Assembly: GCA_021325275.1 (NCBI GenBank)
Contig: JAJPHL010000055.1
Span: forward strand, 1-64,000
Reading direction: 5' to 3'
DNA length: 64,000 nt
DNA from: Terriglobia bacterium
GTDB taxonomy: Bacteria; Acidobacteriota; Terriglobia; JAJPHL01
The translations under genes were made by a program, and so were the position numbers. Below, one piece after another: positions 3,201-63,920 of this stretch. Positions within the stretch are counted from its first letter, which is position 1. Every line of letters begins with the position of its first letter. A model generated the notes under the pieces. It saw only the letters and a program-made list of their open reading frames with translations. It did not search any database and had not been told where the DNA came from.

Positions 3201-3419
3201 TTAGTTTTCCAGATGCCGGTTCCGGTTGAGCCAGTTCCGGTAGCAGTCCTCGGCAACGAATGCCGGCACGCCTACTGGGGCCCAGGCGCCGACATCGAGC
3301 AAAAAAGGCAAGTGGCGGCTTCTCCTGCTCTCAATGAGCGCTCGCGTAACTCTCGCCCACGATTCTTTGGTGACCGGGAGAGTCGCCAAGCGCCCTTCTA
3401 ACAGAGCGTACAACTCCAT
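3201..3419 (-). CDS. Small hypothetical protein
   Basis: A 72-residue frame with a good ribosome site (GAAGGAG, 8 bases before the ATG at 3419) and a plausible composition: an acidic/basic helix MELYALLEGRLATL, then a mixed C-terminus with four Trp. No family is recognised. It faces the toxin-antitoxin genes tail to tail inside the same inverted-repeat cassette and could be a remnant of another small accessory gene. A rightward open frame over the same bases is proline-rich and less convincing. Confidence 0.4.
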   Translation of the reverse strand: MELYALLEGRLATLPVTKESWARVTRALIESRRSRHLPFLLDVGAWAPVGVPAFVAEDCYRNWLNRNRHLEN

Positions 3420-3582
3420 AGCATTTGCTCCTTCAAAACAAATGTTAGCACAAGTGTTGTCCCTTCATTGTCCAAATGCGCTCGCGAGAAAAAGAAAATC
3501 AAGAAATCAATTTAACAGAAGGCACCGTACGGCGGTTTGAGCCTCCGTTAAGCCCGCGAGTTTCCCTACATTGGGCTGAGTG

Positions 3583-3619
3583 TTTTCCTTTGTGTCCTTT
3601 GTGTCTTTGTGGTTCAAAA
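3583..3619 (-). repeat. Right inverted-repeat arm flanking a toxin-antitoxin cassette
   Basis: Reverse complement of the arm at 2416-2449, with 27 identical bases in a row and near-identity for about 32. It ends 3 bases before the stop of the S9 peptidase gene, so the cassette sits between the ends of two flanking genes. Confidence 0.8.
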
Positions 3620-3622
3620 CGC

Positions 3623-6600
3623 CTACGGCTGATCGACCGCTTTCTGGAAGCGCTCTTTCTCCTGGTCGCGATCGATATACGGAATGCCGTTCTTCATCCA
3701 ATCCGGTTCCGGCGCGCCCTTGAGATAATGATCGAAGAATTGCTGCATGCGCACCGTGTAGTCTTTTTGATTCGGACGACGATCAAGGTGATGCGGCTCG
3801 CCGTTGTACACGAACAGATAGCATTCCTTCTGCAAGCGGCGCAGCGCCAGATAATATTCGATCCCCTGATACCACGGCACCGCGTCGTCCGCGTCGTTCG
3901 ACAAGATCATCAGCGGCGTCTGCACGCGATCCGCTTGAAAGATCGGCGAGTTCTGGATGAAACGCTCCGGATACTCCCAGATCGATCCGCCGATGCGGCT
4001 CTGCGTGTGCTCGTACTGGAATTGCCGAGGCAATCCCGTGCCCCAGCGGATGCCATCGTACGCGCTGATCATGTTGGAGACCGGCGCTCCCGCTTCCGCC
4101 GCTTTGAAACGCGTGGTTTGCGTCACCATGTAGGCGATCTGGTAGCCGCCCCAACTGTGTCCCTGAATGCCGATGTTCTTTTCGTCGACAAATCCGCGAT
4201 CCACTTGCGACTGGATCGCCGGCAGCACGCACTTCAACGCGCTCTGCCCCGGATATCCGGTGGTGTAGACGATGTCCGGCGTCAACACCAGATAGCCGTT
4301 CGACACGTAGTAGCTGATGTTGATGTTGTGGCCGGGGCGCGGGTCGACGAAATTGTTCAAGCCTTGCGACAGGCGCTCGTAAATGTAGACGATCATCGGA
4401 TATTTCTTGTGAGGATCGAAGTTTTCCGGTTTGTAGAGCACGCCTTCCAGCGCCACACCGTCGGTATTCTTGAAGCGGATCATCTCCGACGTTCCCCACA
4501 GCAATTGCGATTGCTGGGGATTCGCGTCGGTGACTTTCTTCAGGCTTTTGAACGACAAATCCGTTACGTTCAGGTTGGGATACTCGTTGAAGGTGCTTTC
4601 GGAAACCACCACGACGTCGGCTTTGCGTGCTTTCAAGAGCGTTCCGCCTCCGCCCGCTCCGCCGCGACCGGGAGCACCGGCCGCGCCATAATTCTTCGCG
4701 GCCATTATCAGTTTTTCAGGCCCCGCTCCTAGACTCAGGCGATAGTATCCGGTGTCGCGCGTCTCGGTGTTTTCGGCGCGCAGCAAGAGCGGATGCGACA
4801 CGTCGATTCCAGGCTCCGTGCCGCCTTCGTCGTCTTCACTCGGAAAATTCATCACGCGCAGGCGCAAATGCTCTTTGCGGCCGACGCCGGCCGTCAAGTT
4901 TTTCGCGGCGCTGCCGTCGGGTGCGATTTGCCAGATGTCGTAATAGTCGTAGATGAACGCCCACTTGCCGTCGGTGGAGAATCCCGCGCTGCCATAGGCG
5001 GGCGGCACTTCCGGCGTATCGTTTTCTTCGTTCCAAAACGCCACGGGAAGTTTTCCCGTAAGATTCGTGGTCTTGCCGCTGGGCACCTCGATGGAGTTCC
5101 AGTCTTTTCCATCGAAAATGATCCCGTAATGTCCGTCCGGGGACCACTGCACGCGTCCGCGCGTTTTCTTGGTCAGCGATTTCGCCGCGCCCGTGGTTCC
5201 GTCGATCAAGTAGAGGTCGCTGTAGCCGGAATCGTAGTCGGCCATGATGCGATAGTCGCGATCGTCGCTGCCGAACGCCCACGTGGCCTGGGCGTTGGGC
5301 GAAGCTTGCGCGATTTCCGGCGTACTGAGTTGCGCCGCTTTCTTCGTGGCCAGATCGAGCGCCGCCACATACACGCGATTGCGGTCCTGATTGGCGCGGA
5401 CCTTTTGGATCGGCTGAATGCGATCGTCTTTCCAGTGCCAGAGATCGGCGTGAACTTTGTCGTCGTTGTTGTTTCCGGCGGCCGGCGCGGCGGGCGCTTC
5501 CGCCGCAGTTTCCGAAGAGCTCGCCTCTTCGCGCGGGGGCGCCACCGTCAGGAGAATCCGCGAGCCGTCGCGCGTAAAAGCATTCGCGCCGCGATCGCTG
5601 AGCACAAACCCCGAGCGAATCCCTGGCGTCGATGCGCTGGCCAACTCCACCGGCGCGCCGCCCGCCTTACGATCCCAGCCGTAGAGCTTCCACTTCGGCG
5701 TCTTCGCTTCGGGATCGTCGTGCGTGCTCAAGAACGCGAACATGTTTTTCTGGTCGAAGCTGATCTTGCTGTACTTGCCTTTGCCCGAAAGCAGCGCCTT
5801 CGCGTCGCCGCCGCTCGCCGCCGTGGAATACACGCCGTTCGTCTCGTTTTTCCGCGAGGAGACCGCGTACGTCAGCGTCGCGGCGTCGCGGGTGAGCATG
5901 TATTCGGTGACGTCGTTGAAGGTCCGCTCGGCGCCGTCGGTGGTGTTGCGCAAGACGAGATCCGTGCCGTAGGTGTTACGGCCACGCGCACCGCCACTGG
6001 GGGCCGCGCCGCCGCGTCCACCGCGTCCTTGTGGCGCATCATCATCTTCGTCGCCCGCATCGTTGCCGACGCCTTCGGCACGGCCTTCCGCCGCGGCCGG
6101 CGCGGCTTCCTTTAGATACGCCAGGTATCCCGCGCCCACGCTCGGCACCTGGAAGTTTTTCACATTGGCGATGCGCGTGGCCTTGCCGTCGGCGAGACTC
6201 AGGATCACCATCGCGCTTTTCGGCATTTCGTCGGGACGTTTCTTGTCTTTCTTGGCCTGCTGCACGTCGGCGCGCGGCGGGAAGGTGGAGAAGACCACCC
6301 ACTTTCCGTCGCTCGAGAACGCGATGGTCACGCTACGCTGCTGCGCGGGACCTTCTTCCGATCCCGGATCGGCCGCCACCGGCTGCGGACGTTCGCCGGC
6401 CGGCTCCTGGAATTCCTGATTCGTGGCGAGGTTGCGCACCACGACTTGGCCGTCGCCCTCCTGGGGAAATAGACCATACGCGAGGAATTTTCCGTCGCGT
6501 GAAAGCGTGGGCGTGGTGATGGAGCGCCAGCTATCGTAGTCGTGATGATTCAGGGGCCGCTTGGATTGTTGCTGCGCGAGCGTGAGCCCGGCAATGGCGA

Positions 6601-6634
6601 TCAGGATGGGAAACAGGGTTCTGCGGAATTTCAT
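3623..6634 (-). CDS. Secreted S9 (prolyl oligopeptidase-like) peptidase
   Basis: About 1,003 residues. The chosen ATG at 6634 gives a signal peptide (MKFRRTLFPILIAIAGLTLA). A long WD40/PD40-like beta-propeller follows, then an alpha/beta-hydrolase domain with the nucleophile elbow GIQGHSWGGY, an acidic residue in SNDADDAVPW and a histidine in GEPHHLDRR, the expected Ser-Asp-His triad. It is probably a periplasmic or exported serine peptidase acting on peptides. Two low-complexity Gly/Arg/Ala-rich loops are inserted (around residues 200-225 and 660-675), a feature it shares with the M14 peptidase at 51 kb. It is transcribed alone. Upstream in-frame codons to 6676 lack signal-peptide character. 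Confidence 0.9.
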   Translation of the reverse strand: MKFRRTLFPILIAIAGLTLAQQQSKRPLNHHDYDSWRSITTPTLSRDGKFLAYGLFPQEGDGQVVVRNLATNQEFQEPAGERPQPVAADPGSEEGPAQQRSVTIAFSSDGKWVVFSTFPPRADVQQAKKDKKRPDEMPKSAMVILSLADGKATRIANVKNFQVPSVGAGYLAYLKEAAPAAAEGRAEGVGNDAGDEDDDAPQGRGGRGGAAPSGGARGRNTYGTDLVLRNTTDGAERTFNDVTEYMLTRDAATLTYAVSSRKNETNGVYSTAASGGDAKALLSGKGKYSKISFDQKNMFAFLSTHDDPEAKTPKWKLYGWDRKAGGAPVELASASTPGIRSGFVLSDRGANAFTRDGSRILLTVAPPREEASSSETAAEAPAAPAAGNNNDDKVHADLWHWKDDRIQPIQKVRANQDRNRVYVAALDLATKKAAQLSTPEIAQASPNAQATWAFGSDDRDYRIMADYDSGYSDLYLIDGTTGAAKSLTKKTRGRVQWSPDGHYGIIFDGKDWNSIEVPSGKTTNLTGKLPVAFWNEENDTPEVPPAYGSAGFSTDGKWAFIYDYYDIWQIAPDGSAAKNLTAGVGRKEHLRLRVMNFPSEDDEGGTEPGIDVSHPLLLRAENTETRDTGYYRLSLGAGPEKLIMAAKNYGAAGAPGRGGAGGGGTLLKARKADVVVVSESTFNEYPNLNVTDLSFKSLKKVTDANPQQSQLLWGTSEMIRFKNTDGVALEGVLYKPENFDPHKKYPMIVYIYERLSQGLNNFVDPRPGHNINISYYVSNGYLVLTPDIVYTTGYPGQSALKCVLPAIQSQVDRGFVDEKNIGIQGHSWGGYQIAYMVTQTTRFKAAEAGAPVSNMISAYDGIRWGTGLPRQFQYEHTQSRIGGSIWEYPERFIQNSPIFQADRVQTPLMILSNDADDAVPWYQGIEYYLALRRLQKECYLFVYNGEPHHLDRRPNQKDYTVRMQQFFDHYLKGAPEPDWMKNGIPYIDRDQEKERFQKAVDQP

Positions 6635-6733
6635 GGGATGGATTGTAGCAAGTCTGGCTGCGGGCAAGGGCCACAAAATGAGCCGCGACCTTTATGGAGC
6701 GGCGGAGCCCCCCAGTTGGATGAATGTCCAGGG

Positions 6734-6768
6734 CGAAAACACGAAACACCAACTTTCGCGTGTTTCCG
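6734..6768. repeat. Short inverted repeat of the ACACGAAA type
   Basis: Arms CGAAAACACGAAA (6734-6746) and TTTCGCGTGTTTCCG (6754-6768) are reverse complements apart from two positions, around a 7-base loop. It lies downstream of the leftward HlyD gene and upstream of the S9 gene, so it could act as a terminator hairpin. The remaining 6635-6825 shows no gene. Confidence 0.55.
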
Positions 6769-6825
6769 TTCAGACGTTCAACAACACGGGCGGTCCTCCG
6801 CTTCATTACTGTCGCGGCTCACTCG

Positions 6826-7521
6826 CTACTTTCCAACCACGAATGCTTCCACCTTCGACCCCAACGGGAGACTCGCGCCCGGCTCCAGCTCAATGAGGGG
6901 TTTCGCCATCCCGATCGCGATGACCTTGCCCGGGAATCGCTTGCCGGGGAACTCGGCGGCCGTGACGTACGCGCCTTGACCCACGTGCAGTTTCGACGCG
7001 TCGAGGCCCGCGAGGTCGACACGCACGCGGAGCACCGACGGGTCAGCCATCATCACAACGGGTCCGTCCGTCACGGCCTCGCCCACTTTGGCGGTGTGGC
7101 GCACGATGCCGTTGATGGGCGCGCGGACAAAATGATTCTCCCAGTCGAAGCGGGAATCGTCGAACAGAGCGCGCGCCTGCGCGAGATCGGCTTCCGCGGC
7201 TTTCTTGGCGGCCGGCGTTTGGGCGTCGCGCACTTTGTCGAGCGCCTTCTCGAGATTCGCGTTCAGCGCGGCACTCTGCGCCAGCGACTCGTCGAATTCC
7301 AGGATCGCGAGGAGTTGGCCTTTCCGTACGATCGCGCCTTCCGCCACGCGGACGAACTTCACCTTGCCGGGAACCGGCGCGGTCACCTGTACCTGGTCGG
7401 TGATGGGCTCGACCTTGCCCGACCCGGCCACTAGGCCGTCCCGGCCGTCGGCACCCGCCGCGGCTGCCATGGTCGCTACCACCGTTAGCGCCCAGAATGT
7501 GTTTTGAATGATGCGTCGCAT
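6826..7521 (-). CDS. HlyD-type periplasmic adaptor (membrane fusion) protein
   Basis: A 231-residue protein with a signal peptide (ALTVVATMAAAAGA), a biotinyl-lipoyl-like half (QVTAPVPGKVKFVRVAEGAI, residues about 45-65), an alpha-helical hairpin, the second lipoyl half (FVRAPINGIVRHTAKVGEAV) and a beta-barrel domain. This is the order of the adaptor subunits of RND, MacB-type or type I efflux systems, which bridge the inner-membrane pump and the outer-membrane channel. It is short for the family, and no transporter or TolC gene is adjacent, so its pump must be elsewhere. The TetR gene upstream runs the same way with 129 bases between them. Confidence 0.8.
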   Translation of the reverse strand: MRRIIQNTFWALTVVATMAAAAGADGRDGLVAGSGKVEPITDQVQVTAPVPGKVKFVRVAEGAIVRKGQLLAILEFDESLAQSAALNANLEKALDKVRDAQTPAAKKAAEADLAQARALFDDSRFDWENHFVRAPINGIVRHTAKVGEAVTDGPVVMMADPSVLRVRVDLAGLDASKLHVGQGAYVTAAEFPGKRFPGKVIAIGMAKPLIELEPGASLPLGSKVEAFVVGK

Positions 7522-27752: not shown

Positions 27753-28667
27753 CTATGGTGTGCCGTTGCCGGTGGTCCGCCCGGCGCTTGGGTCGGATGA
27801 ATTAGCCGCGTTGAGATCGAGGTGAATGCCGCGCAAATCCGGCGCGTAACAATTGCCGTCGCGATTGTAGGTGGCCGCGCATGCGCCGCGCGCGAACTCC
27901 GGGCGTCGCGGCGACTGCGCGAATTGCCACACGGCAGCAAACGGCACGCCGCTCTCGGCGGGATCGCGCGGTTCCAGTACGCAACCCTTTGACGCCGAGC
28001 AAGCGTCGTTGGCAACCCAAAAGACGATGAGCCGCCCTTCGGCATGCGCGCGGATATCCACCGCGGTGACCACGTTCTCGTCGTCGCGCGCGGGAATGCC
28101 CGAGCAATAGACGCCGGCGCGATAATGCGCGGACGTCACAGCGTCGGCGAAAGCGTGAATGTAGGCGTGTTGCGCGGCGCTCATGCGTCCGCCTTCCTCG
28201 AGGTCGAGGAAAATCACCGCATTTTCCGGAAATCCTTCTTTACGCGCGGCGGCGACAGCGGCGGCGCCATCCTGCGTGCCCAGCTTCGCGGCGTCGCGAC
28301 GCAACGCCGCGGACGATCGCGCGTTGTACAGCAGAAGAAATCCGAAGCCCGCGGATTCGATTGTCGCGCGCTTGCCGGTCCAAGTATTGAAACGTTCGCC
28401 CGGCGGAAGTCCCAGCCAGTATCCAGTGAACGCGAAGTGTTTGCGCAGCGCGGGGAGTTTGTCGTCGCCGGGATAGATGTTTCTGTCGAAGCCGATATAA
28501 GCGCCGGCCTGAGCGTCGAGAACGGAAGGCAAAAGGCAAAAGGCAAAAGTCAAAAGGCAAAAATACGAAAGCAGAAAAACGAGCGTTCGTACCTTCCTTT
28601 TGCCTTTTGACTTTTGCCTTTTGCCTTTTGCCTTCTGCGGTGCCCGCACCCTATCCCCAAAGTTCAT
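27753..28667 (-). CDS. Secreted DUF1906 (glycoside hydrolase-like) protein with repeat-derived signal peptide
   Basis: 304 residues. After cleavage near DAQA the mature part reads YIGFDRNIYPGDDKLPALRK, GFGFLLLYNARS, AVIFLDLEEGG and YRAGVYCSGIPARD, the (beta/alpha)-barrel pattern of DUF1906/Rv2525c-like glycoside hydrolase-like domains. The ATG at 28667 overlaps the end of the DUF1501 gene by 17 bases. No other ATG, GTG or TTG in frame leaves a signal peptide. Residues 12-47 are encoded by a heptamer inverted repeat: one arm gives a lysine-rich n-region (KAKGKRQKSKGKR), the complementary arm gives the hydrophobic core (CLLTFAFCLLP). Enzymatic activity is not established for the family. Confidence 0.7.
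   Translation of the reverse strand: MNFGDRVRAPQKAKGKRQKSKGKRKVRTLVFLLSYFCLLTFAFCLLPSVLDAQAGAYIGFDRNIYPGDDKLPALRKHFAFTGYWLGLPPGERFNTWTGKRATIESAGFGFLLLYNARSSAALRRDAAKLGTQDGAAAVAAARKEGFPENAVIFLDLEEGGRMSAAQHAYIHAFADAVTSAHYRAGVYCSGIPARDDENVVTAVDIRAHAEGRLIVFWVANDACSASKGCVLEPRDPAESGVPFAAVWQFAQSPRRPEFARGACAATYNRDGNCYAPDLRGIHLDLNAANSSDPSAGRTTGNGTP
28524..28641. repeat. Inverted repeat with AAAGGCA heptamer arms
   Basis: Left arm (28524-28562) and right arm (28594-28637) share at least 37 bases as reverse complements, built from tandem AAAAGGC units with one GTC variant at the mirrored place. The inner loop is itself closed by TACGAA/TTCGTA (28564-28569 and 28586-28591). The whole would fold into one long hairpin. 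It lies within the 5' coding part of the DUF1906 gene. Confidence 0.85.
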
Positions 28668-32406: not shown

Positions 32407-34311
32407 ATGCCGGTTCGAATCAGGTCCGCGAAAGTCCAACCACGTCTCGTTGCAGTGCTGTCTCTTCTTCTGTTTGGCCTCAGTGCGCACGCGCAGCTTC
32501 CCGGCAACGGATCGCTGAACGGCAAATACTGGTTCCGCTACGTTCAAATCACCACGGACTCCACGGGGAATCTCAGCCAGGCGATGAGCCTGCTGGGATC
32601 GCTGACGTTCAACGGCTCCGGGACCTTCAGCTATTCCGCCAGTCAAACGGTGGGCGCATCGACAACCGGATCGGTCACTGGCAGCGGAACGTATTCGGTG
32701 GCGTCCAATGGATTTGTCACGCTGACGCAGCCGCAAGGCACGCTCCCGATGAACGGACGCGTGGGAATCGAGATGCTCCTGGCCTCGACCACGGAGGGCA
32801 ACACCAACACCTTTGATCTGCTAGTGGCGATTCCCGCTCCTACGTCGCCGGTGGCGGCGACGCTGTTGAACGGCACGTATCAAATCGGTACGCTCGAATT
32901 TCCCAGCGCCAGCACGGCGAACGCTCGCAGCACGCAATTCAATGTTGCGGCTAACGGCGCGGGCAGTTTGGGCAGCCCGACGGTGGCGGGGCACGCTAAC
33001 AATATCAACGGCGGCGCGTCGACGTTTTCCGCGATCGCCAACGCGACGTATACGTTGAATTCCGACGGCAGCGGGACCATGGTTTTTCCGCTGGGCGGCG
33101 GCGCAACGATCGCCACGCAACTCGTTTCCGGCACCAAGAACATCTATGTTTCGGCCGACGGCAAATTCGTCCTGGGCGGATCCACAGCCGCGGGCGGCCA
33201 CGACATTTTGTTCGGCATGAGCGCGCTAACTTCCACGACCATCGACAGCACCTATCTCAGCGGACTCTTCTTCGAAAGTGGACTGGCGTGGGTTTCGACG
33301 AGCAGCGCTGGTTTTGATTCTTATACGGGATCGGCAAACTCGGGCGGCGCGGGCACGGTGTTGTTCCACCAGCGCTATCACTCCGCTGCGGGCGGCACGC
33401 TGGATTTCACGGGATCGGAGGCGTATTCGCTGCTGCCCGATGGCACCGGCGGCTACGGCGTCGATCGAATCGCCGTGGGTGCGGGCGGAATGAATCCGGG
33501 ACAAGCGTTTCTGGCCGCCGGAACCGGCATCGCAACCTCGGTGAATTACGAATTGAACATTGCGGGACTCGCGCCCGGTTTCAACGGCAACACGCCGTTC
33601 ATTTCTCCCGCCGGTGTCGTAAATGCAGCCAGCCTCACGCCGGTGGGGAGTCCCGTGGCGCCGGGAGAATACGTCAGTTTGTTCGGCGTGGGATTAGCGC
33701 CATCTCAGGGACAAGCATCGTCGTTTCCGATTCCGACCACGCTCAGCGGCGTCACCGTGAGCGTGACGGGCGCGAACGGAACGGTCCTCGCGCCGTTGAA
33801 TTTTGTCAGCGGCGGGCAAATCAATTTGCTCGTGCCGTATGAACTCACCGGACCGACGGCAACGTTTCAAGTGAAGGCCGCGGGCGTGACGTCGAATTCC
33901 GTCTCGGTGCCGTTGGCCGCAACCGCACCGGGAATTTTCACGCAAAACTCTTCGGGCGGCGGCTACGGAATTTTCCTGCACGCCAATTTCAACCTGATTA
34001 CCGGCGCCAGCCCCGCGGCGCGCGGCGAAACGATTTTGTGTTTCCTCACCGGACTCGGCGCGGTGACGCCTCCGGTGGCCGACGGCGCGCAGGCGCCAAG
34101 CAAAACGTTGTCCAACGCGACGGCCACCATGAGTGTCTACTTCAACGGCACCAGCGGCGTGATTTCCTACCAAGGACTCGCGCCCGGTTTCGCTGGACTC
34201 TATCAAGTGAACGTGACGGTGCCGGCATCGATCACGCCGGGACCTTCCGTGCCCGTAGCGATCGCGACGAATGTCGCGTATCTCGATCAGGTGACGATTC
34301 CCGTAAATTAA
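32407..34311 (+). CDS. Secreted TIGR03437-domain protein
   Basis: 634 residues. ATG 32407 is chosen because GGAG lies 6 bases upstream; an in-frame ATG at 32395 has none. A signal peptide (LVAVLSLLLFGLSAHA) precedes about 390 residues of Ser/Thr/Gly-rich beta repeats with no named family (SLTFNGSGTFSYSAS, NATYTLNSDGSGTMVF). The C-terminal 220 residues are the TIGR03437 domain (GVVNAASLTPVGSPVAPGEY, SGGQINLLVPYEL, FAGLYQVNVTVPASI). It is an exported protein of unknown role. Its stop overlaps the stop of the convergent esterase gene by 4 bases. Confidence 0.85.
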   Translation: MPVRIRSAKVQPRLVAVLSLLLFGLSAHAQLPGNGSLNGKYWFRYVQITTDSTGNLSQAMSLLGSLTFNGSGTFSYSASQTVGASTTGSVTGSGTYSVASNGFVTLTQPQGTLPMNGRVGIEMLLASTTEGNTNTFDLLVAIPAPTSPVAATLLNGTYQIGTLEFPSASTANARSTQFNVAANGAGSLGSPTVAGHANNINGGASTFSAIANATYTLNSDGSGTMVFPLGGGATIATQLVSGTKNIYVSADGKFVLGGSTAAGGHDILFGMSALTSTTIDSTYLSGLFFESGLAWVSTSSAGFDSYTGSANSGGAGTVLFHQRYHSAAGGTLDFTGSEAYSLLPDGTGGYGVDRIAVGAGGMNPGQAFLAAGTGIATSVNYELNIAGLAPGFNGNTPFISPAGVVNAASLTPVGSPVAPGEYVSLFGVGLAPSQGQASSFPIPTTLSGVTVSVTGANGTVLAPLNFVSGGQINLLVPYELTGPTATFQVKAAGVTSNSVSVPLAATAPGIFTQNSSGGGYGIFLHANFNLITGASPAARGETILCFLTGLGAVTPPVADGAQAPSKTLSNATATMSVYFNGTSGVISYQGLAPGFAGLYQVNVTVPASITPGPSVPVAIATNVAYLDQVTIPVN

Positions 34312-35231
34312 TTCGGAAAAAGAAACTTCAGCGCATCGGGCAATCGTTTTGCCCACCACGATTCGGAATGCATGCCGCCTTCTTGCACCACGACCTTTAG
34401 ATGGCGATCGTCGAGGCCCGCTTTCCGAAGAATCTCCGCAAGCCTGGCGACGTCTTCCACCGGCTCGCCACGCGACGTTCCCACTCCGATGAAAATGCGG
34501 CGCGGCCATTCCCGCACCGTCGCGGCGTCTTTCAACAAGTGATAGTCGGAGGCATACACCGAAGGACTCTCGATCAGCAATCCGGCGAACGCGCCGGGCT
34601 GCGCGATGGCCGCATAGATCGCCGCTCCCGCACCGTACGACGATCCGCCGAGCACGCGATTTCCCGCTCCGCCGCGCACGCGATAATGGTCCTCGATAAA
34701 CGGAACTACTTCGCTCATCAAAAATTGCGGATACTTCTTCCCCTGCGGATCGGGAATGGCGGGTGAAAACGTAGAGTCGGGATACGGCAGATACTCGTTG
34801 GCGCGCTGGCGGCTGTCGCCCGAATCGATGCCCACCACGATGATCGGCGGAATCGCGCGCGCGGCGACCAACTGCTCCACCGTTTCGTCGACCCGCCATT
34901 CTTCGCCGCGCGACGAAGTGCAAACGTCGAAGAGGTTTTGTCCGTCGTTGAGATAAAGCACAGGAAAGCGTTGTCGCGCGTTCATCGGGAGGCGATAGCC
35001 CGGCGGGAGCAACACGCGCAGCATGCGCGTGTTGCCGAATACTTTGCTGTCAAACTTCACGATGTCCAGCGATCCGGTGACGGTGGATTCGCAGGATTGC
35101 GCGCCGCTCCATAAGGGAAGCGCGACGCCCAGGCAGGTGACCCACAGAGCGCACAGAGAACTCAGAGAACACAGAGAGAATCTCCGTTCATTTTTGCCTT
35201 TTGCCTCTTGCCCTTTGCCTTTTGCCTTCAC
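34308..35231 (-). CDS. Secreted esterase (Fes/EstD-type alpha/beta hydrolase) with repeat-derived signal peptide
   Basis: About 307 residues. The catalytic domain is a PF00756-type esterase: FPVLYLNDGQNLFD, nucleophile elbow VLGGSSYGAGAA, and a C-terminal His in EGGMHSESWW. Substrates in the family range from enterochelin to acyl esters. The frame is open to an ATG at 35330, only 7 bases from the divergent gene. The GTG at 35231 is preferred since it gives a textbook signal peptide and leaves room for promoters. The lysine-rich start (KAKGKGQEAKGKNERR) and hydrophobic core (FSLCSLSSLCALW) are both encoded by intergenic repeat sequence. Confidence 0.75.
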   Translation of the reverse strand: MKAKGKGQEAKGKNERRFSLCSLSSLCALWVTCLGVALPLWSGAQSCESTVTGSLDIVKFDSKVFGNTRMLRVLLPPGYRLPMNARQRFPVLYLNDGQNLFDVCTSSRGEEWRVDETVEQLVAARAIPPIIVVGIDSGDSRQRANEYLPYPDSTFSPAIPDPQGKKYPQFLMSEVVPFIEDHYRVRGGAGNRVLGGSSYGAGAAIYAAIAQPGAFAGLLIESPSVYASDYHLLKDAATVREWPRRIFIGVGTSRGEPVEDVARLAEILRKAGLDDRHLKVVVQEGGMHSESWWAKRLPDALKFLFPN

Positions 35232-35270
35232 GGTTTTGTTTTTCTCTGTGCGCTCTGCGCGCTCTGTGAT
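35142..35270. repeat. Composite inverted repeat with CACAGAG arms and a heptamer centre
   Basis: The outer arms are CACAGAGCGCACAGAG-like at 35142-35180 and its inverted counterpart CTCTGTGCGCTCTG-like at 35239-35270. Between them lies a single arm of the TTTTGCC heptamer repeat (35190-35228), as in the element at 28524. It overlaps the start of the esterase gene and fills most of the space to the divergent oxidoreductase gene. Confidence 0.75.
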
Positions 35271-35337
35271 GTCCGTGTCAAATTTCTCCGTGGTCACGCG
35301 CCGCCAGTGGTGCATCGGGCAATGATACACTCCCCGA

Positions 35338-36354
35338 ATGCGTCTTGGACTGAACTTCGGCTATTGGGGCTCGTCGAAAGTGGATCAAGTGGCGCTGGCG
35401 CAGGAAGCCGAGCGCCTGGGTTATCACTCGCTGTGGACCGCCGAGGCATACGGTTCCGATTGCATCACGCCGCTCACGTGGCTGGCCGCCAAGACGTCGC
35501 GCATTCACGTGGGAACCGCGATCATGCAGATGCCCGCGCGCACGCCCGCAATGACCGCGATGACCGCCGCCACGCTCGACCTGCTGTCGGGCGGACGCGT
35601 GTTGCTCGGCTTGGGAGTGAGCGGTCCGCAAGTGGTCGAAGGATGGCACGGCGTGCCGTACGGCAAGCCGCTGGTGCGCACGCGCGAGTACGTGGAAATC
35701 ATCCGCACGATTTTGAAACGCGAAAAACCGCTGGAGCATCACGGCGAGCACTACGACATTCCCGTGCGCGGCGGCACCGGCTTGGGCAAGCCGCTCAAGC
35801 TGATTGTGCATCCCTTGCGCGATCGCATTCCGATTTACTTGGCGGCGATTGGTCCCAAGAACGTCGCGCTGGCGGCGGAGATCGCCGACGGCTGGCTGCC
35901 GATTTTCTTTTCGCCGCGCCACATGCACGTATATCGCGAATGGCTCGACGAAGGATTCGCGCGGGCCGGCGGTCCGAAAGATTTCGACATCGCGCCGGGC
36001 GTGATTGTCAACGTGGGGCCGAGCGCGGAAGAGTGTCGCAACACGGTGAAGCCGCACCTGGCGTTGTACGTCGGCGGAATGGGCGCCCGCGACAAGAATT
36101 TCTACTTCAATCTTGTCTGCCGATACGGATACGAGGACGCGGCGAACAAGATTCAGGAACTTTATCTCGCGGGACGCAAAGCCGAAGCGATCGCCGCCGT
36201 ACCCGATGCGCTGGTTGACGACGTCGCGCTGTGCGGGCCAAAGGAACGCATCGCCGATCGGTTGCCGGCGTGGCAAAATTCCGGAATCACTACATTGATG
36301 TGTCACGCCGGTGATTTCGAAGCGGTGAGAGTCATGGCTGAACTCGTGGCGTAA
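35338..36354 (+). CDS. LLM-class (luciferase-like) F420-dependent oxidoreductase
   Basis: 338 residues with the bacterial luciferase-like TIM barrel: [46 protein letters not shown] and [20 protein letters not shown]. This set matches the F420-dependent rather than FMN-dependent branch (compare methylene-H4MPT reductase-like and Mycobacterium oxidoreductases). The physiological substrate is not readable. It is divergent from the esterase gene and is followed by a long inverted repeat, so it is probably a single-gene transcript. Confidence 0.88.
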
Positions 36355-36457
36355 GAACAAAAGTAACCGCGGATGGACGCAGATGAACGCAGATAAAAAC
36401 AGGATGCCGCGGTTTTATCTGCGTTCATCTGCGTCCATCTGCGGTTGCTTTTGTTCG
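36355..36457. repeat. Inverted repeat with GCAGATGAAC arms
   Basis: Arms at 36355-36400 and 36411-36457 are reverse complements over about 46 bases with two or three mismatches, built on an imperfect 10-base period (GGACGCAGAT, GAACGCAGAT), around a 10-base loop. It sits one base past the stop of the F420-type gene and 26 bases before the next start. Folded as RNA it could stop transcription in either direction. Confidence 0.85.
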
Positions 36458-63820: not shown

Positions 63821-63920
63821 AAAACAGAGCACACAGAGAACTCAGAGAGCACAGAGAAATGCAAAAACCTTGGGCTTTGTTTTTCTCTGTGTGCTCCGTG
63901 TCCTCTGTGTGCTCGGTGTT
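63821..63920. repeat. Inverted repeat with CACAGAG arms
   Basis: Arms at 63821-63866 (ACAGAGCACACAGAG period) and 63875-63920 (CTCTGTGTGCTC period) are imperfect reverse complements around a short loop. It sits between two converging genes, where it could stop transcription from both sides, and belongs to the same class as the arms at 35142-35270. Confidence 0.75.

Follow-up and report, generated by a model that had tools for sequence, protein, structure and literature searches.

In-frame palindromic GGCAAAA repeats in the apparent signal peptides of an esterase and other secreted-type proteins of a Terriglobia bacterium

The stretch of DNA analyzed here (the window; 64,000 nt, positions 1 to 64,000 of contig JAJPHL010000055.1 in the Terriglobia bacterium assembly GCA_021325275.1) encodes an esterase of the PF00756 family whose N-terminal coding region is occupied by a palindromic repetitive element built of GGCAAAA and CACAGAG heptamers. 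The esterase frame lies on the minus strand (34308..35330), running from GTG 35330 to a stop at 34308 with a likely start at ATG 35315, and its match in a Pfam profile search is full-length (profile positions 1-250 of 251; E 2.2e-25). Read from ATG 35315, the protein begins with MHHWRRV, TTEKFDTDITERAERTEKNKTVKAKGKGQEAKGKNERRFSLCSLSSLCALWV, TCLGVALPLWSGAQ, and SCESTVTG, where TTEKFDTDITERAERTEKNKTVKAKGKGQEAKGKNERRFSLCSLSSLCALWV is the block corresponding to the composite palindrome, and both MHHWRRV (35295..35315) and TCLGVALPLWSGAQ (35097..35138) are unique, non-repeat sequence. The former, whose position agrees with the starts of relatives, probably represents the ATG and remaining n-region of an older signal peptide, and the latter, judging by its sequence and by relatives, the remaining h- and c-region; the mature esterase is predicted from its sequence, the PF00756 match, and relatives to begin at SCESTVTG (34311..35096). 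This N-terminus displays Sec-type features, namely a 12-residue window with a mean hydropathy of 2.2, a net charge of +6 ahead of that window, and a c-region. An alternative in-frame GTG start (35229..35231) is found within the element, immediately 5' of KAKGKG, and a codon-based gene caller picked GTG 35060. A luciferase-like monooxygenase (PF00296; 35338..36354, plus strand) is divergently oriented, with its ATG 22 nt from ATG 35315.

The composite element spans approximately 35139..35297 of the minus strand (~156-159 nt), has the outer inverted ends GTGACC-AC[AG]GAG, and shows outer CACAGAG-type arms enclosing an inner GGCAAAA array. In the coding direction, these are a 5' CACAGAG-type arm reading TERAERTE (35244..35292), the GGCAAAA array reading KAKGKGQEAKGK (35191..35229), and a 3' CTCTGTG-type arm reading FSLCSLSSLCALW (35143..35181). 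The residues that an earlier note on this DNA had read from the two repeats in the esterase frame are correct, KAKGKGQEAKGK corresponding to 35228-35193 and RFSLCSLSSLCALW to 35183-35142 of the minus strand; the repeats in its proposed extent (35142-35270) are likewise real, but the feature is larger and includes a 5' CACAGAG arm that it had left out. Its proposal of a repeat-built signal peptide holds insofar as the repeats supply part of the n- and h-regions, but not for MHHWRRV and TCLGVALPLWSGAQ. Similarly, the two repeat families that it regarded as unrelated are indeed two heptamers, but they form a single composite, with the same order of arm, array, and arm recurring at G000:C49:119681-119813 (78% identical to the esterase copy). 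The esterase copy possesses terminal inverted repeats, as in miniature inverted-repeat transposable elements (MITEs), and has ACC at both ends, which may be a target-site duplication or may belong to the palindrome itself. Its predicted RNA fold is strong (-58.5 kcal/mol; z = -5.1 relative to 200 shuffled sequences), and it lies between two divergent genes and follows no stop codon.

The search for orthologues in the genus and family yielded this genome only, and widening it to the order added a single genome, in which the only esterase matches were weak. Among more distant relatives, L273, L274, and L276-L282 have short, repeat-free signal peptides ahead of a shared C.STV.G.L motif, as in L279 (MWRTGLTLFAFFGAIWGQA followed by ACVPTVTG), L278 (MLRAVLMLTLCGAVYGQA followed by PCTPTVTG), and L273 (MPFVCLRRCIALLSLLFPLAVNPQVKP followed by SCHSTVVG), all ordinary signal peptides with the cleavage position placed by hand. 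If the insert is left out, the window protein reads MHHWRRV-TCLGVALPLWSGAQ-SCESTVTG, similar in length to the signal peptides of these relatives, and the cysteine of SCESTV becomes residue 23, compared with 20-29 in L273, L274, L278, and L279 (counted by eye). In an esterase tree of 85 rows including the window protein, 17 rows satisfied a simple rule for signal peptides, 16 of which carried that label in the tree, with L073, L097, and L289 being borderline and L073 dropped from the group by hand. The window protein falls in an 11-row set (support 93/82), all 10 other members of which have a signal peptide; this set is nested in one of 21 rows (98/93), 14 of them with a signal peptide. The immediate partner of the window protein is L047, with weak support (92/51). 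Of 90 related esterase loci from other genomes, a single one has such repeats within 250 nt upstream, namely L072, where a GGGAAAA-type array (~1320-1367) lies immediately past the upstream stop and is open into the esterase gene, with no clear start codon. Since the signal peptides of relatives in the clade precede this motif and are free of repeats, secretion of the esterase is most simply seen as ancestral and the repeat as a later arrival, with no new secreted protein having been made.

The element belongs to a family that is abundant in this genome: GGCAAAAGGCAAAAG, allowing at most one mismatch, occurs 147 times in forward and 142 times in reverse orientation vs 1 + 1 for a reversed-pattern control, and the esterase element with its flanks has 77 BLAST matches within the genome. 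A typical GGCAAAA copy is a hairpin of two ~40-nt arms, each of five heptamers, flanking a variable loop; judged by eye, most copies begin 6-30 nt past an upstream stop, some of them between convergent genes. The CACAGAG hairpins are placed likewise, e.g., at 63832-63909 of the window, where a hairpin of the family that also provides the outer arms of the esterase composite lies 19 nt past a stop. The GGCAAAA element was found in 7 of 61 genomes searched, the present one included, and in 12 loci from the other six, no signal peptide shows a clear insertion of both arms; among these loci, L202 and L204 have one hydrophobic stretch each, which may be ordinary.

A genome-wide scan for repeat-bearing signal peptides, which the earlier note had suggested as a check on recurrence, bore this out, with nine genes found to contain the GGCAAAA element in what appears to be their signal peptide. 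The second case within 7 kb that it had pointed to is genuine: a Rv2525c-like gene (PF08924; 27753..28667, minus strand) with a GGCAAAA hairpin at 28525..28638 within its signal peptide. In addition to this gene and the esterase, the nine comprise a TPM gene (L140), a LolA-like gene (L168), a GH116 gene (L152), a pectinesterase (L170), a caspase/C13-like gene with matches below the curated cut-offs (L137), a second gene of L168 with no family (element at 3213-3317), and a gene with no family above the cut-off and one hydrophobic arm only (L194). The secreted class of the Rv2525c-like, esterase, TPM, and LolA-like genes is based on the signal peptides seen in relatives and that of the last three on sequence alone; the GH116 gene and the pectinesterase we presumed to be secreted from their families. 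The LolA-like gene is the clearest candidate for an insertion: its relatives (58-65% identical) have a matching ATG overlapping the end of the upstream gene and no insert, such that relative L212 reads MNRLMLALLTAAPLIAQ followed by DARSIVDE and the present protein MNEANA-RQKAKGKRQKLQVRNRCVSTVLLPFAFCLLPFA-LLLSGSRCLAQ followed by DARTIIEE. Judged by eye, the relatives of the TPM and Rv2525c-like proteins also have repeat-free signal peptides. Counting the genome's own locus each time, repeats are present upstream in 2 of 29 LolA-like, 1 of 30 TPM, and 1 of 30 Rv2525c-like loci, a short related array being found in one of the 28 other LolA-like loci. In five of the seven tandem cases, the stop of the upstream gene is overlapped or directly abutted by the in-frame ATG; in the remaining two, the ATG lies 12 and 25 nt past this stop.

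These comparisons argue against the route to new secreted proteins that the earlier note had envisaged, given that the esterase clade is secreted without the repeats and the Rv2525c-like, TPM, and LolA-like relatives have ordinary signal peptides. The note had also held that orthologues with signal peptides free of repeat character would make the overlap ancestral or accidental; such signal peptides do exist and point to an ancestral signal peptide, but the repeat itself appears to have been inserted later. The element is best described as remodeling existing signal peptides, not as creating new secreted proteins.

Association with secretion was examined in 30 of 40 element/gene pairs, leaving out five without GGCAAAA and five in which over 130 nt separate the element and the gene; L168 3213-3317 was kept despite a called gene start 247 nt off, as the frame contains its element. 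Of 11 secreted-type genes, 9 have the element within the gene vs 1 of 19 others (outside in the remaining 18; p = 3.5e-5), with p = 6e-4 if the six best-supported of the nine secreted cases are kept, and p = 0.0055 (4/6 vs 1/19) if only those of the nine with signal peptides seen in relatives are kept, values that describe the association and do not confirm it because the classes were assigned by hand after the data had been seen. The exceptions lie on both sides. The MurNAc-6-P etherase of L143 (2335-3231), a cytosolic protein whose GTG start overlaps the upstream stop, begins with a single GGCAAAA arm, the charged one, which a cytosolic protein may be able to bear; conversely, the proteins of L146 and L158 are secreted although their genes do not include the element, which lies outside. 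In L162, a membrane transporter, the frame is open through the element with no nearby ATG, and this case was counted as outside.

The coding properties of the heptamers may offer a simple rationale for this pattern. Neither GGCAAAA nor CACAGAG contains a stop codon in any frame on either strand, because of which an open frame by itself is no evidence for coding. Whatever the frame, GGCAAAA translates as GKRQKAK (+4), and its complement as FCLLPFA (mean hydropathy 2.27), which places it among only 29 of 16384 heptamers that are at least this extreme in both charge and hydrophobicity and stop-free. With one arm reading as charged and the other as hydrophobic, a GGCAAAA hairpin mimics an n-region plus h-region in any frame. 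Any such hairpin ahead of a gene can thus resemble a signal peptide; therefore, the test has to come from relatives.

Taken together, we favor, at a probability of roughly 0.74, the reading that a non-autonomous palindromic element inserted in frame into the pre-existing Sec-type signal peptide of the esterase, probably with export kept, as one of about nine such cases in this genome. Under this proposal, the element, with its GGCAAAA arms here nested in CACAGAG arms, would have entered 7-8 codons after the ATG as an insert of 156 nt (52 codons), giving MHHWRRV-element-TCLGVALPLWSGAQ ahead of SCESTVTG. The charged GGCAAAA array would lengthen the n-region and the CTCTGTG arm would supply part of the h-region, with the rest of the h-region, the c-region, and the cleavage site being left intact from the old sequence; export would therefore probably have been kept. 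More generally, we infer that insertion occurs close to the ends of genes and within spacers, and that, where the next gene starts at once, the elements land in its first codons, where only an N-terminus serving as a signal peptide would tolerate a two-arm hairpin. As the heptamers are stop-free and a hairpin with GGCAAAA first reads as charged and then hydrophobic, which a signal peptide would tolerate and a cytosolic N-terminus would not, insertions at gene starts would survive mainly in secreted proteins, with selection acting as a filter. Several observations weigh against this reading: the 22 nt between ATG 35315 and ATG 35338 are tight for two promoters; a search of 35000-35450 for a sigma-70-like promoter found none; the n-region from ATG 35315 would be unusual in its length of ~45 residues, many of them acidic; the secretion classes come from hand assignment after the fact; and, beyond the clade, a signal peptide is absent from most related esterases. 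Further, the genome is the only one of its family among those searched, because of which the esterase insertion is deduced from distant relatives that are only 37-53% identical.

The crowding of the divergent starts would be relieved if the element were intergenic DNA between the two genes that now supplies both the esterase start, GTG 35231, and most of its signal peptide, with the old start lost. This GTG, placed directly ahead of KAKGKG, would yield a well-formed signal peptide, and L137 and L140 have an ATG at the same place before AAGGC. However, MHHWRRV and TCLGVALPLWSGAQ join to a signal peptide of normal length like those of relatives, and the five tandem cases with starts at the upstream stop begin outside the element; hence, we regard this alternative as possible but unlikely. 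The start itself may be either, ATG 35315 fitting the relatives and GTG 35231 offering the neater signal peptide along with room for divergent promoters. An improbable alternative is that the repeat is an untranslated spacer, with the frame open by chance through stop-free repeats and a cytosolic esterase starting at GTG 35060: the choice of the gene caller and the many related esterases without a signal peptide are consistent with it, but the nearest esterase clade is secreted, SCESTVTG, which lies upstream of 35060, is conserved in relatives directly after their signal peptides, and the same arrangement precedes eight other secreted-type genes, with the element outside in nearly all the others.

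The strong folding and the frequent location just past stops, including between convergent genes, would also suit hairpins retained as functional RNA or termination structures, with signal-peptide coding as a by-product of tight gene packing. Against this, the esterase copy follows no stop, and no T-tract terminator-like site was found at it; moreover, this idea is compatible with insertion for the coding cases, and as a separate explanation we consider it rather unlikely. Finally, the GGCAAAA hairpin could be a portable, frame-indifferent signal-peptide module, its sense and antisense arms providing the n- and h-regions, that is kept because it is harmless in genes for secreted proteins or even restores export, and that repeatedly rebuilds signal peptides in this lineage; this stronger version of events appears quite doubtful to us.

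Palindromic elements were reportedly described in Rickettsia by Ogata et al. in 2000 (Rickettsia palindromic elements; RPEs), and paired inverted units of ~40 nt, mostly extragenic and just past stops, are typical of repetitive extragenic palindromes (REPs), bacterial interspersed mosaic elements (BIMEs), and MITE-type palindromes. RPEs are described as repeated, stop-free, translated palindromes of ~100-150 bp (PMC10969869) that insert in frame in unrelated genes (PMC10969869; PMC2996958), and the present element resembles them by this description. It also has many palindromic copies in the genome and in-frame insertions where relatives lack it (LolA-like, TPM, Rv2525c-like, and, by distant relatives only, the esterase). 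However, RPEs are reported from metabolic genes of various kinds, where they typically occupy non-structured segments (PMC2996958), whereas the two-arm insertions here are in signal peptides only, with coding copies not at assorted positions along proteins but at gene 5' ends only in the stretches scanned (barring a possible 3' overlap in L154 and a called gene overlapped at its 3' end in L167). Further, the unit here, unlike that of RPEs, is a heptamer repeat with a frame-independent reading. The enterobacterial RU-2 element in Yersinia YPO1552 (Delihas, 2007, PMC2759123) is similar in that relatives have unrelated signal peptides; that account works out one signal-peptide locus for a different sequence family, compared with about nine loci in one genome here, and the LolA-like gene, unlike the RU-2 case, provides positional evidence of insertion. 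The likeness to REP, BIME, and MITE palindromes lies in the paired inverted ~40-nt units, mostly extragenic and past stop codons (as outlined in the MITE review, PMC10969869), and the difference in the heptamer-repeat arms and in the presence of some copies in coding sequence. PARCELs, as presented in PMC2996958, are also palindromic DNA with coding potential, but comprise tandem 25-residue amphipathic repeats, not signal-peptide insertions. We found no description of this repeat family, its letters, or its peptides in the open-access literature, subscription journals not being covered. Thus, in-frame palindromic insertion is already known, but its concentration in the signal peptides of a single genome, and a coding reason for this that does not depend on the frame, appear to be new.

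If true, this would be an insertion bias toward one part of proteins with a simple coding reason, and a route by which repeats enter coding sequence harmlessly. It would account for odd N-termini of predicted proteins, rich in K and then in F and L, alert annotators to the blurring of gene starts by stop-free hairpins, and offer a testable model of signal-peptide tolerance.

Other repeats were noted alongside. A third hairpin family (GGATGGACGCAGATGAACGCAGAT; 44-nt arms, 95% complementary) lies at 36355-36456 of the window, immediately 3' of the luciferase-like stop, and in L158 (3174-3399) two CACAGAG/GGCAAAA composites are adjacent in a divergent spacer. In the L168 region (3213-6912), a single row of genes (FtsX-like permease, LolA-like, unknown) contains three GGCAAAA hairpins, of which two lie within signal peptides. 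L142, L156, L157, L163, L171, and L172 have long arrays consisting purely of GGCAAAA, several with AAATCAAAAATCAAAA ahead; since such arrays sit at the ends of contigs (C12, C42, C47, C56, C75, and C7), the assembly seems to break at them. Upstream of 2202 on the minus strand of L230, a LolA-like relative from another family (genome G052), a CCCTTTT-type repeat reads as the h-region FAFSLLPFPFA, a possible independent parallel.
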